DNA from: Pseudomonadota bacterium
GTDB taxonomy: Bacteria; Pseudomonadota; Gammaproteobacteria; QQUJ01
DNA: 64,000 bases
Reading direction: 5' to 3'
Assembly (NCBI GenBank): GCA_008501635.1
Contig: QQUJ01000018.1
Coordinates: 399,286 to 463,285, forward strand
Below the pieces are notes generated by a model that made no database searches, was not told the origin of the DNA, and was given only the letters and a program-made list of their open reading frames with translations. How positions within the stretch are numbered: the stretch's first letter is position 1; each line of letters begins with the position of its first letter. The translations under genes were made by a program, and so were the position numbers. Below, piece by piece: positions 31,678 to 46,290 of the stretch.

Positions 31678-33114
31678 CTAGTTCTTCAGGCGCTTGATTT
31701 TATCGTAGGCAACGAGCGCGTCCCTCCGACTGGCGGCGAGATCAACGACCGGGTGTGGATAGTCGATTCCGAGACGGATCTTCGCGGCGGACAATATCTC
31801 CGGTGTCGCGTTCCAGGGCTGCTGCAACCAGCGATCGGGCAGTTCTCCGAGCTCGGGTAGCCAGCGTCGTACGTACCTCCCCTGCTTATCGAATCGCTCG
31901 CCCTGTAGCACGGGATTGAAAATGCGGAAGTAGGGTGCAGCGTCCGCACCGCATCCCGCCACCCATTGCCAACCCAAGGTGTTGTTGGCGAGATCAGCGT
32001 CGACCAGTGTGTCCCAGAACCAACGGGCGCCCTCCTGCCAGGGGATGCGCAGATTCTTGGTCAGAAAAGAGGCGGCGATCATTCTTACGCGATTATGCAT
32101 CCATCCGGTTTTCCAGAGTTCGCGCATGCCGGCATCCACCAGCGGAATCCCCGTTTCTCCGCTCTGCCAGGCCTGCAGCAGAGATCGGTAGTTGGCGCGC
32201 CAGGGAAACCGGGTAAAGCGCGGATCGAGAGGTTTATCGGGGGTGTGGGGAAAGTAGTGGAGCAGATGATGGGCGAATTCGCGCCATCCCAATTGGCGTA
32301 TATAGGGCTGCGTTGATCCCGCATCACTTTGTTCCATTGACGATGCCTGCCAGAGAATCTGTCGCGGGGTTATCTCACCCAGATGAAGGTAGGGCGAGAG
32401 CCGCGATGTACCGCTCGCGGATGGCACATCGCGTAATCGGGTATAGGCGGCTATGTCATCTGAACAGAACGCTGAGCAAAGCGCTTCGGCGTTTTGTTCG
32501 CCAGGCTGCCAGCGATCCGCCAGACCTCCCTCCCAACCTACCCTGGGCAGCAGTTCGAGGGCGTCGACAGTAAGCGAGGGGATACCCTGTGGGGGTGGCG
32601 GAAATCGGGCCGGAACGGGCAACGGAGGTCCGCATGCAGGAAGCCGTTGGCAAGCCTTCCAAAACGGTGTGAAGACCCGATACGGCGCGCCGCTGGCGTT
32701 GAGCAGGGATTCGGGTTCGTGGAGCAGGGTACCGCCGAAACGCAGGAAAGAAACGCCGCGGGCAGCAAGAAGTTGCGCGATGCGCGCATCGTTTGCGACC
32801 GGGTTGGGGTCGTACACACGGCTGCAGTAAACCTGCGTGGCGCCAGTAAGTTCCGCGAGATCCGGCAGGGCGGTTTCGGTTTTGCCACACCAAACCGTGA
32901 GCCGCGAATCCGCTTGCCGTAGACGCTCGCTCAGCGCGCACAGGCTATGGTGCAACCACCAGCGTGACGCCGCGCCCAAGGGCCACCCCTTGTCACTCTC
33001 GGGATCGTGCACATAGACAGGGATCAAGCGGTCTGCATTCTGACAGGCGGTAGTCAGCGCCTCGTGATCAGCGAGGCGCAGATCACGGCGGAACCAGAGG
33101 ATTGCCACCGTCAT
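31678..33114 (-). CDS. phrB: Deoxyribodipyrimidine photolyase (class I CPD photolyase)
   Basis: A 478-residue flavoenzyme that splits UV-induced pyrimidine dimers using blue light. The N-terminal antenna domain starts MTVAILWFRRDLRLADHEAL. The FAD domain shows GWREFAHHLLHYFP, GWMHNRVRMIAASFL, DADLANNTLGWQWVAGCG and APYFRIFNP. The tryptophans of the electron-transfer chain (in WMHNR, RWFWD and GWQW) are present. The ATG at 33114 follows the regulator's stop by 6 bp, so both genes are co-transcribed. Confidence 0.95.
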   Translation of the reverse strand: MTVAILWFRRDLRLADHEALTTACQNADRLIPVYVHDPESDKGWPLGAASRWWLHHSLCALSERLRQADSRLTVWCGKTETALPDLAELTGATQVYCSRVYDPNPVANDARIAQLLAARGVSFLRFGGTLLHEPESLLNASGAPYRVFTPFWKACQRLPACGPPLPVPARFPPPPQGIPSLTVDALELLPRVGWEGGLADRWQPGEQNAEALCSAFCSDDIAAYTRLRDVPSASGTSRLSPYLHLGEITPRQILWQASSMEQSDAGSTQPYIRQLGWREFAHHLLHYFPHTPDKPLDPRFTRFPWRANYRSLLQAWQSGETGIPLVDAGMRELWKTGWMHNRVRMIAASFLTKNLRIPWQEGARWFWDTLVDADLANNTLGWQWVAGCGADAAPYFRIFNPVLQGERFDKQGRYVRRWLPELGELPDRWLQQPWNATPEILSAAKIRLGIDYPHPVVDLAASRRDALVAYDKIKRLKN

Positions 33115-33120
33115 CAAGCG

Positions 33121-34059
33121 TTATCCAGCGGGTCGCGGCTTCAACGAGTCATCCAGTTGACGCAGCGCGTGCGTGATGTCCTTGCCCACGGGGATGGCGC
33201 CTGAGCGCACGATGGCATCGCTGTGGCTTATCGACGTTTCGCCGCCAACGAAAATCGGGACGTTGACCTGTTCGTGAAGTCGCGTCATCTGTTCCTGAAG
33301 TACTGTACGTGATGGTTTGATCGACCCCGACAAGACGATCGCCCGCGCACCTGTGCGTTGTACGACCGCCGGCAGCTCCTCAAGGGGCAGGTCGGCGCCC
33401 AGCAGTATCAGCCGATAGTCGCGTTCGATGGCGGAGAGGCAAAAGAGCATCAAACCCACCTCGTGATGCTCACCTGGCAGGCAGGCGGCGATGATCTTGG
33501 GGCCATGGCCACGGCGCACCCGATGATGGAAGCGCGCCCCGAGTTTATTGCGCAAGTAGCTGCCAAACAGATGCTCCTCTGCAACGCTGCCATCGGACGA
33601 TTCCCAGCGTTCCCCCAACGTACGGAGCAGCGGAATGATCAGACGCTGCGTCACCATATCGATGGGATAGATGGAGAGTGCTTCGTTATAGGTGTCGTCG
33701 AGTGCGTATTCATCAAAACGAACCACGGCGTTGAGCATCCGCTGTTGGAACTGCTCCCAAGGGCTCGGGTCACCGCTGGTCTTCACCACACTGGTCGGGC
33801 TTTGCAGACGGCGCTTCACCTGGCTGATTGGCAATCCCTTGTCCAGCAGTTCCAACACCTGGTTTATCAGGTCGATGTCCTGTTGTGTGTAGAGACGGTG
33901 TCCCTTCGGCGTCCTTTGCGGCTGGATCAATCCATATCGTCTTTCCCAGGCCCTCAACGTGATTGAATTGACTCCGGTGAGCGCGGAAACGGTACGAATG
34001 GGAAAGAGCTCACTGTCGCTGGGTACAGCGTGTTTGTCGGGGGTTGCAGAGGTCCGCAT
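33121..34059 (-). CDS. MerR-type regulator with cobalamin-binding domain (CarH/LitR-like photoreceptor)
   Basis: A 312-residue protein. Residues ~19-88 form a MerR helix-turn-helix (IRTVSALTGVNSITLRAWERRYGL). A helical linker and a B12-binding Rossmann domain follow. The CarH cobalamin signature is present: Trp152, nine residues, Glu162-His163, and the ExHxxG motif at Glu197-His199-Gly202, where His199 should ligate cobalt. The residue after Trp152 is Glu, whereas Thermus CarH has the light-state ligand His132 there. Proteins of this class bind adenosylcobalamin, repress in the dark and release DNA in light. First gene of an operon with the photolyase. Confidence 0.9.
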   Translation of the reverse strand: MRTSATPDKHAVPSDSELFPIRTVSALTGVNSITLRAWERRYGLIQPQRTPKGHRLYTQQDIDLINQVLELLDKGLPISQVKRRLQSPTSVVKTSGDPSPWEQFQQRMLNAVVRFDEYALDDTYNEALSIYPIDMVTQRLIIPLLRTLGERWESSDGSVAEEHLFGSYLRNKLGARFHHRVRRGHGPKIIAACLPGEHHEVGLMLFCLSAIERDYRLILLGADLPLEELPAVVQRTGARAIVLSGSIKPSRTVLQEQMTRLHEQVNVPIFVGGETSISHSDAIVRSGAIPVGKDITHALRQLDDSLKPRPAG

Positions 34060-34089
34060 GGTGCATTCCTATGAGAAGTCTTGATAAAA

Positions 34090-34117
34090 CCTATACAAAA
34101 ATTATAAGTCACGTCAA
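34090..34117 (-). promoter_or_regulatory. Predicted promoter of the carH-like/phr operon
   Basis: On the minus strand, TTGACG (34117-34112), a 16-bp spacer and TATAGG (34095-34090) form a plausible sigma70 promoter 31 bp before the regulator's ATG. TATACA (34092-34097 on the plus strand) overlaps the -10; it fits the T-n-n-A-C-A pattern associated with CarH half-sites, so autoregulation is plausible. Confidence 0.5.
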
Positions 34118-34150
34118 GGGAGGCATGTAAAACGATAAAAAGGAACGATA

Positions 34151-34162
34151 ATGTACAATAAA
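34151..34162 (+). repeat. Copy 1 of the 12-bp direct repeat ATGTACAATAAA
   Basis: The same 12 bp recur at 34249-34260, 98 bp apart, both within the A+T-rich divergent promoter region between the carH-like gene and the FAS1 gene. Copy 1 lies ~35 bp upstream of the predicted carH-operon -35. The repeat core TGTACA is a palindrome. Confidence 0.6.
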
Positions 34163-34241
34163 ATACGTAGATCGGAATTACTTTAAAAACACTGAAATAC
34201 AGTCTGTTACGATATTACTAGTTGAATTAATCGCTCAGATA

Positions 34242-34268
34242 TTGACAGATGTACAATAAACGTATAAC
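34242..34268 (+). promoter_or_regulatory. Predicted FAS1-gene promoter with repeat copy 2 in its spacer
   Basis: TTGACA (34242-34247) and TATAAC (34263-34268, 15-bp spacer; TAACTT would give 17) form a promoter ~87 bp before the FAS1 start codon. The second ATGTACAATAAA (34249-34260) fills the spacer, where a bound CarH-like repressor would block RNA polymerase. The regulator assignment is inferred from adjacency. Confidence 0.55.
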
Positions 34269-34355: not shown

Positions 34356-34925
34356 ATGACCCAACTGATCAAACAAAACAGGACGATGTCGATGACGGCA
34401 GCTGCGGCCCTCTTGGTTTCAGCGACAGTGATTACCTCTCCCGCCCAGGCAGGCAAGGGCTATCTGAGCGAGTACGAGTACGGTGCAACCAAGACGGCCA
34501 GCAAGATGATGGATAAGGACGATATCGTCGATACCGCAGTCAAAGCAGGGTCTTTCAATACGCTGGTCACGGCCGTCAAGGCCGCGGGACTGGTGGAAGT
34601 CTTGAAGGGAGACGGGCCATTCACTGTTTTCGCGCCCACCGACGCGGCATTCGCCAAGTTGCCGGCTGGGACCGTTGAAGCCCTGTTGGCAGACAAGGCG
34701 AAGCTGGCGCAGATTCTGACTTATCACGTGGTACCGGGGCGCCTGGAAGCGAAGGACGTGGTTAACAAGGATCGGCTGAAGACGGTGCAGGGATCGAATC
34801 TCTCCATTTCCACCTCGCCCAAAGGTGCAATGGTGGATGCTGCCAACATCGTTCAGACCGATATCGTCACCAAAAACGGGATTATTCATGTCATAGATAC
34901 CGTGGTGCTTCCCAGCGGTTCGTAA
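34356..34925 (+). CDS. Secreted fasciclin (FAS1) domain protein with N-terminal YLSEYE motif
   Basis: A 189-residue secreted protein. The signal peptide runs to about residue 32 (ending SPAQA). Directly after it comes [11 protein letters not shown] (motif at 35-41), then one FAS1 domain: [20 protein letters not shown], the H1 motif [15 protein letters not shown], the H2 region ILTYHVVPG and C-terminal [16 protein letters not shown]1 domains mediate adhesion or surface interactions. AGGAGA lies before the ATG. Its promoter region is shared with the divergent CarH-like regulator, so light control is likely (inference). Confidence 0.88.
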
Positions 34926-35386
34926 GGCGAGGTGACAGAACAACCTTGTAGTTGTAGCGACGCACTTAACAGGGTTGTTGGTGAAGAGTGTTGCTTTCCA
35001 TAGAGTGCAGATCTTTTCGATCCAATAGTCGGTAAACGGTGCCGGGTACGAAAAGAACGTGGAGGCAATCGTTCCTCGCCATCGATGCAAAAGGTGAAGC
35101 CCGCCCTTTGGGCGGTCTTCTACCTACTCGAGTCGGGGCACGAAGTTCAGAGCAGGGCGAAAGCCAACGTTGTTGAGTCGCTAGCGCCCATCTCCTTGAC
35201 GAGAGTGTCTGTTGTTGTGCCTGCTCGAACACTAATCCTTTCGGTTGTATCGCGAGCGACACGGAAAGACTGTAATGATCTGGACAACATGCCGGTCTAG
35301 TAAATTACCCTGAAACACTTTCTCAGGTGCACACAAGGAATCAAGGTTTCTTGTCATCCAACGAAATTGAATGGAGATTTAGCGAA
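34926..35386. other. Intergenic region, 461 bp, between FAS1 and SEY-repeat genes
   Basis: I see no gene. CCGCCC-TTT-GGGCGG followed by TCTTCT (35101-35121) is a hairpin that could act as a weak terminator for the FAS1 transcript. The next gene therefore probably has its own promoter here, but I could not identify one confidently. No further copy of the ATGTACAATAAA repeat is visible. Confidence 0.45.
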
Positions 35387-35758
35387 ATGAAAAAGCCAAT
35401 TAGTCTACGTAACTTCCTTTCGATGGCTGCTGCATCGACTGTGCTCTCGGCTGCGTTGGTTGCATCTCCGGTAATGGCGGAAGGCAACGACACTTATAGG
35501 ACAGTTCACGCCGGGTACTTGAGCGAGTATCAAGTTCAGCCGGGTGATTTGCCCACCATGACCGGTTCGATCTTTAACGCGGAATCCGGCGATAACGTTA
35601 CTTATGCGACCATTCACAACGGATGGTTGAGCGAGTACGAAACCCAGGCAGGCGACGCTTCACGAATGACTGCGTCGTTCGACATGTTTGAATCCAGCGC
35701 CTACAAGGGTTCGAGCCGCAAGAGCTGGTTGGGCCAAGATGGCAGCAACTGGAACTAA
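35387..35758 (+). CDS. Small secreted protein with two G(Y/W)LSEY repeats
   Basis: A 123-residue protein with a clean signal peptide (MKKPISLRNFLSMAAASTVL..., cleavage after VMA, ~31). The mature part has two 36-residue repeats: TYRTVHAGYLSEYQVQPGD (motif 43-49) and TYATIHNGWLSEYETQAGD (motif 79-85), each followed by a Met-Thr pair. The tail KSWLGQDGSNWN may be a third, degenerate motif. The same GYLSEYE follows the signal peptide of the FAS1 protein upstream. GGAGA precedes the ATG. I know no family for it; role unknown. Confidence 0.75.
   Translation: MKKPISLRNFLSMAAASTVLSAALVASPVMAEGNDTYRTVHAGYLSEYQVQPGDLPTMTGSIFNAESGDNVTYATIHNGWLSEYETQAGDASRMTASFDMFESSAYKGSSRKSWLGQDGSNWN

Positions 35759-45559: not shown

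Positions 45560-46290
<731 letters not shown>

Follow-up and report, generated by a model that had tools for sequence, protein, structure and literature searches.

According to the available portions of two reports (PMC8156234, PMC9304148), the sites of CarH in Thermus and Bacillus megaterium are tandem 11-bp repeats (nAnnTnnACAn or nnnnTnnACAn) that lie over the -35 or the -10 element. As described there, the operators consist of three or four 11-bp repeats, partial ones being allowed, the repeats bound in the published cases are contiguous, and a single full repeat accompanied by partial ones is enough for binding in myxobacteria. A different geometry is described, in the available portion of a third report, for the class II regulators PplR1 of P. 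putida and PmlR2 of P. mendocina, which bind TGTACA-N12-TGTACA with an 18-bp period (PMC9758184). PmlR2 is judged in that report not to bind AdoB12, and the light signal arrives via a LOV protein.

The locus analyzed here comes from a Pseudomonadota bacterium (Gammaproteobacteria; QQUJ01; assembly GCA_008501635.1), whose genome sequence comprises 3,929,709 bases in 30 contigs. We analyzed a stretch of 64,000 nt, called the window (contig QQUJ01000018.1, positions 399,286-463,285, forward strand). In it, an intergenic region of 296 bp separates the start of a gene for a CarH/LitR-type regulator from a divergently oriented FAS1 gene, and a photolyase/cryptochrome-family gene follows the regulator gene (Table 1). 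The top NCBIfam model for the photolyase-family protein was a plant-like cryptochrome, with a score under the cut-off. The FAS1 protein carries a G(Y/W)LSEY motif close to its N-terminus (34458-34475), and the small ORF that follows has two more (35513-35530 and 35621-35638). This ORF (35327-35758) had no Pfam or NCBIfam match and, among 369 genomes of the class, matched its own genome only. A tRNA-Ser (gga) gene is present at 45560-45650 on the + strand.

Table 1. Coordinates of genes, half-sites, predicted promoters and proposed operators in the window.
Feature	Position	Strand	Details
Photolyase/cryptochrome-family gene	31678-33117	-	Pfam; immediately 3' of the regulator gene
CarH/LitR-type regulator gene	33121-34059	-	312 aa; Pfam MerR HTH, B12-binding_2 and B12-binding
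Proposed regulator-side operator	34077-34109	+	11-bp register, read against the published consensus: AGTCTTGATAA (partial), AACCTATACAA (full nnnnTnnACAn), AAATTATAAGT (partial)
Predicted regulator promoter	34090-34117	-	TTGACG (34117-34112) N16 TATAGG (34095-34090); read by eye
TGTAAA, weaker half-site-like word	34126-34131	+	26 bp ahead of the 34152 half-site; matrix score 4.25
Repeat copy 1 (middle copy)	34151-34162	+	From sequence; TGTACA half-site at 34152-34157; no 11-bp partner in either direction
Predicted FAS1 promoter	34242-34268	+	TTGACA (34242-34247) N15 TATAAC (34263-34268); read by eye
Proposed FAS1-side operator	34246-34267	+	11-bp register, over the predicted -10: CAGATGTACAA (34246-34256; full fit to CarH consensus nAnnTnnACAn), TAAACGTATAA (34257-34267; partial)
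Repeat copy 2	34249-34260	+	From sequence; TGTACA half-site at 34250-34255, within the predicted FAS1 promoter spacer
FAS1 (fasciclin) domain protein gene	34356-34925	+	Pfam; divergent from the regulator gene

An earlier reading of this DNA, made from the sequence alone (the sequence-only reading), had called the neighboring regulator CarH-like, and analysis of the protein agreed with this. Its domain order is MerR HTH, B12-binding_2 and B12-binding; the first two domains scored above the Pfam cut-offs, and the B12-binding domain, at 31.0 bits (E 2.4e-07), was slightly below the cut-off of 32.1. The W-x9-E-H capping motif and the lower-ligand His (W152, E162, H163 and H199) were invariant in all seven sequences compared, and the solved structure most like the regulator was that of Thermus CarH (5c8d, E 3.6e-35). 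We refer to the protein as CarH/LitR-type and not as a CarH equivalog, because its score of 156.9 bits against NCBIfam NF052513 is far under the curated cut-off of 400. The genome encodes a PduO-type cobalamin adenosyltransferase and gave no match to a BtuR-type one; the presence of the PduO-type enzyme makes synthesis of AdoCbl in the host cell plausible.

The 12-bp sequence ATGTACAATAAA is present as two exact copies, 98 bp apart, just where the sequence-only reading had placed them, and a scan of the 3.93 Mb of its own genome found no third exact copy. Dinucleotide shuffling of the intergenic region produced an exact 12-mer direct repeat in 15 of 5000 cases, and 13 of 431 overlapping tiles of 296 bp taken from the window contained one; the bare repeat is therefore modest evidence only. 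The repeat by itself is unusual, not extreme, and its meaning sits in the TGTACA core. Candidate half-sites in the intergenic region are TGTACA at 34152 and 34250, TATACA at 34092 and TGTAAA at 34126, and three of the seven T(A/G)TA(C/T)A words in the 64-kb window fall here. At least two TGTACA words were seen in 25 of 5000 shuffles of the region, and at least three T(A/G)TA(C/T)A words in 155 of 5000. When scored with a half-site matrix built from relatives, with the window left out, the summed scores of the two best and the three best half-sites were each reached in 0 of 1000 shuffles.

We then considered the position of these half-sites relative to the predicted promoters. The repeat had been described as lying in divergent promoters; this holds for the FAS1-side copy, which lies between TTGACA and TATAAC as claimed, whereas the middle copy is in neither predicted promoter. 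The spacer of the predicted FAS1 promoter is 15 bp, short of the usual 16-18 bp, and a stricter promoter consensus scan reported no promoter-like site, either on the FAS1 side or for the regulator. On the other side of the region, TATACA (34092-34097) does overlap the predicted -10 of the regulator operon, as had been proposed. Both predicted -10 elements are overlapped by the proposed operators, where the promoters are those read by eye and the scan gave none. T-n-n-A-C-A, which the sequence-only reading had named as the CarH half-site, is indeed in print as part of the tandem 11-bp repeat, in the available portions of the reports (PMC8156234, PMC9304148).

Spacing within the region was less telling. 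The FAS1-side 11-bp pair, TGTACA-ATAAA-CGTATA (34250/34261), gave p 0.005 for the whole intergenic region and p 0.002 for its FAS1-proximal part, and the regulator-side 11-bp pair by itself did not reach significance (p 0.13). In the window, strict T(A/G)TA(C/T)A half-sites form no 11-bp pair. None of 1000 shuffles matched a 26-bp pair, TGTAAA/TGTACA (34126/34152), and several further spacings gave p <0.05 among the 24 tried in the intergenic region; the 11-bp spacing within this one region is therefore suggestive only, and what marks out 11 bp is the relatives, not the window region by itself.

Relatives of the regulator were drawn from 56 genomes, from genome contigs (best 80 of 573) and from the 369 class genomes, of which 43 had a match at E <=1e-50 and loci were taken for the best 30 of the 43. 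A total of 111 loci, window included, were tested; L012-L034 (weaker matches from the 56 genomes) and L115-L120 (repeats of earlier loci) were left out. Dropping 13 loci with near-identical upstreams gave 98, namely group A with W-x9-EH (n = 64, window included) and group B without it (n = 34). All 64 group A rows carry the W, E, H and H residues. We scanned the 200 bp before each regulator start; a script assigned the start codons and placed several of them, including those of L006, L058, L061, L124 and L125, a few bases off.

A hexamer search that was given no motif returned TGTACA as the most enriched hexamer in both groups, present in 36 of 64 group A upstreams against 3.4 expected and in 18 of 34 group B upstreams against 1.1. 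In group A, T(A/G)TA(C/T)A was found at 155 sites compared to 23.2 in shuffles, and random 200-bp windows from the same loci held a mean of 5.4 and a maximum of 13 sites in 200 draws. These sites lie in 53 of the 64 group A upstreams, window included, so the half-site is present in orthologous intergenic regions, from which its absence had been named as a point against the sequence-only reading; 11 of the 64 lacked a strict site of any kind within 200 bp. The most AT-rich 200-bp window elsewhere in each locus served as a further control, and in group A it held 28 sites in 13 of 64 loci. In group B this control held 48 sites in 23 of 34 loci and exceeded the upstreams (32 sites in 21), and the group B enrichment is therefore not specific to the regulator's own start. 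In four Pseudomonas class II loci (L105, L110, L111 and L112), two 18-bp T(A/G)TA(C/T)A pairs, about 50 bp from each other, lie some 1 kb upstream of the regulator gene, possibly in front of the operon's first gene; these pairs may account for part of the excess in the group B control.

The two groups differed in the spacing of the half-sites. In group A, 40 T(A/G)TA(C/T)A pairs were 11 bp apart against 0.09 expected (0 of 200 shuffles), and group B had 8 pairs at 18 bp against 0.0 expected. By rows, an 11-bp pair was present in 28 of 64 group A upstreams (two of which had an 18-bp pair too) and 2 of 34 group B upstreams, and an 18-bp pair in 8 of 34 group B upstreams; 36 of the 64 group A upstreams had no strict pair at either spacing. 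These spacings, found without prior assumption, are the ones already published, since the described CarH and PplR1/PmlR2 sites show them, as far as the available portions of those reports go. The 18-bp rows all belong to one Halomonas/Pseudomonas clade of 27 rows (support 100/99), 8 of which show the pair in the 200 bp scanned, and the 11-bp form is distributed across the remainder of the tree. This remainder includes five group B rows (L076, L079, L082, L092 and L104) that have the 11-bp spacing with a relaxed half-site, and so the spacing tracks clade and not B12 residues alone. Within the flanking sequence retrieved, 24 of 64 regulators in group A and 32 of 34 in group B had a photolyase homologue nearby. 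For the window, the 12-bp repeat gives way to its TGTACA core, which is enriched in relatives; the likely functional period is 11 bp, and only the FAS1-side copy has an 11-bp partner.

Taken together, these results suggest that the ATGTACAATAAA copies and TATACA (34092) are probably half-sites of the adjacent AdoCbl-dependent CarH/LitR-type repressor, which would act as a light switch on both promoters. The candidate operators resemble those of CarH in Thermus thermophilus, Bacillus megaterium and Myxococcales, as available descriptions give them, in 11-bp phasing, in T-n-n-A-C-A, in overlap with the -35/-10 elements (here of predicted promoters) and in the use of partial repeats, and the promoters are divergent, as in some of the published species. 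Unlike the operators in those descriptions, which control carotenoid genes, the ones here have FAS1 and photolyase as predicted targets; the half-site in this group is specifically T(A/G)TA(C/T)A, and the FAS1-side array of the window is short, with one full and one partial repeat.

The half-sites at 34152 and 34250 might instead be CarH half-sites that act jointly over 98 bp, through looping or a larger oligomer bridging the promoters, and not as separate 11-bp arrays. Both copies share 12 identical bases yet are without strict 11-bp partners, and relatives often have further strict sites that belong to no 11-bp pair. Joint action is nevertheless improbable, because the dominant spacing in relatives is 11 bp in a histogram of spacings up to 60 bp, and CarH binds contiguous repeats in the cases described in the available parts of PMC8156234 and PMC9304148. 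Still less probable is that the regulator uses a class II, PplR-like geometry, or that it represses or activates from these sites independently of light. The sites described for PplR1 and PmlR2 share the TGTACA half-site, their regulators share the MerR-type HTH (available portion of PMC9758184), and the HTH residues are nearly identical in groups A and B. However, the period of those sites is 18 bp, the report portion cited describes PmlR2 as lacking AdoB12 binding and as receiving light through a LOV relay, and the B12 residues of the window regulator are intact, unlike those of the class II clade. No strict TGTACA-N12-TGTACA pair is present in the window, and the best loose 18-bp pair, GATAAA/TGTACA (34134/34152, p 0.019), lies away from both predicted promoters. 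Classic MerR activation uses a promoter spacer of 19-20 bp, and the spacer predicted for FAS1 is 15 bp. Chance, in the form of a 12-bp repeat with a promoter-like word that arose by accident in an AT-rich spacer, is very unlikely: the shuffle and tile counts for the exact repeat and for three or more half-sites leave it some room, but the hexamer enriched ahead of the regulator's relatives is TGTACA itself, and the counts for two or more TGTACA words and for the top-three score sum speak against it.

A motif scan of the genome had been suggested as a way to define a regulon, and it gave no excess over control. The 11-bp paired motif, at <=1 mismatch, was found at 13 places, one fewer than the 14 of the reversed control, and no wider regulon is seen in the own genome. 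Reading frames were listed around all 13 places and Pfam was run on four neighboring frames. Three of the four gave a match: to a DctP solute-binding protein, to a DNA-binding protein and, in a frame about 400 bp away, to an acyl-CoA dehydrogenase. Within the listed frames, no light-response-like gene was seen after any other of the 13 places. At <=1 mismatch ATGTACAATAAA was found at 4 places against 3 for the reversed control. The sequence TGTACAATA occurred four times, against two for its reversed control; two occurrences are in this intergenic region, one lies within a reading frame (L213) and one near the starts of transglycosylase and methyltransferase frames (L214). Control of carotenoid synthesis by the regulator is not supported, because the locus of the only squalene/phytoene synthase gene shows no strict site ahead of that gene.

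We also looked for the association with FAS1 elsewhere. At L127 the gene order is the same, with a photolyase gene behind the regulator and a divergent FAS1 gene (59% identical), and TTGACA-N5-TGTATC-N5-TGTACA, in three 11-bp steps, lies ahead of FAS1. A CarH-like regulator was found in the flank of 5 of 30 FAS1 loci: the window (L158), L164 (the same place as L127), L159, L161 and L163. Like the window regulator, those of L159, L161 and L163 adjoin a FAS1 gene and have TnnACA at 11 bp; they differ from it in belonging to a distant clade (25-29% identity) and in having TGGACA, TAGACA or TTGACA half-sites, here ahead of FAS1, instead of TGTACA. Upstreams of this distant clade contain GGACAA/TGGACA words, and TnnACA formed 18 pairs at 11 bp against 0.46 expected (0 of 200 shuffles) in 21 loci, a set that includes a few other CarH-like kinds and two group A regulators. 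The difference in half-site hints that a change of letters from one clade to another can be read. Of the FAS1 loci, 3 of the 5 with a CarH-like regulator and 4 of the 25 without had strict TnnACA pairs at 11 bp; the window and L164 fail this strict test because their arrays contain partial repeats, and with four loci lacking the regulator passing it, the FAS1 link rests on few loci. No report of FAS1 as a CarH/LitR target was found in the literature searched, from which subscription papers were largely absent.

A broader view that these comparisons make possible, if not quite probable, is that gammaproteobacterial and some betaproteobacterial CarH-type repressors share T(A/G)TA(C/T)A, mostly as 11-bp direct repeats, while their recognition helix has hardly changed; that the Halomonas/Pseudomonas class II clade, without the B12 residues, moved this half-site to an 18-bp spacing; that a separate CarH-like clade reads TGGACA at 11 bp; and that both clades repeatedly have FAS1 as a target.

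The sequence-only reading, which had seen dark repression by occlusion in both directions, is partly supported overall. From the features of the locus we infer binding by the window regulator, a response to light and the direction of control. In the dark, an oligomer of the B12-bound repressor would bind the 11-bp-phased half-sites over the FAS1 promoter, covering its -10, and the same repressor would cover the regulator-photolyase promoter, so that RNA polymerase would be kept off both. Light would cleave the cobalt-carbon bond and cause the oligomer to fall apart, and FAS1 and the regulator-photolyase pair would then be expressed. A role for the middle copy is rather doubtful; it may be an extra, possibly weaker, site.

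If this model is true, light control of the CarH type extends to a FAS1 protein, of the cell-surface or adhesion type, and to a photolyase. The comparison also provides an operator consensus, T(A/G)TA(C/T)A with an 11-bp period, for the B12-type regulators of a large, mostly uncultured gammaproteobacterial group. Use of the same half-site at 11 bp or 18 bp according to clade would allow a direct test of how oligomer form relates to DNA spacing, and if FAS1 is a recurrent target in both clades, FAS1 secretion would be a light response.
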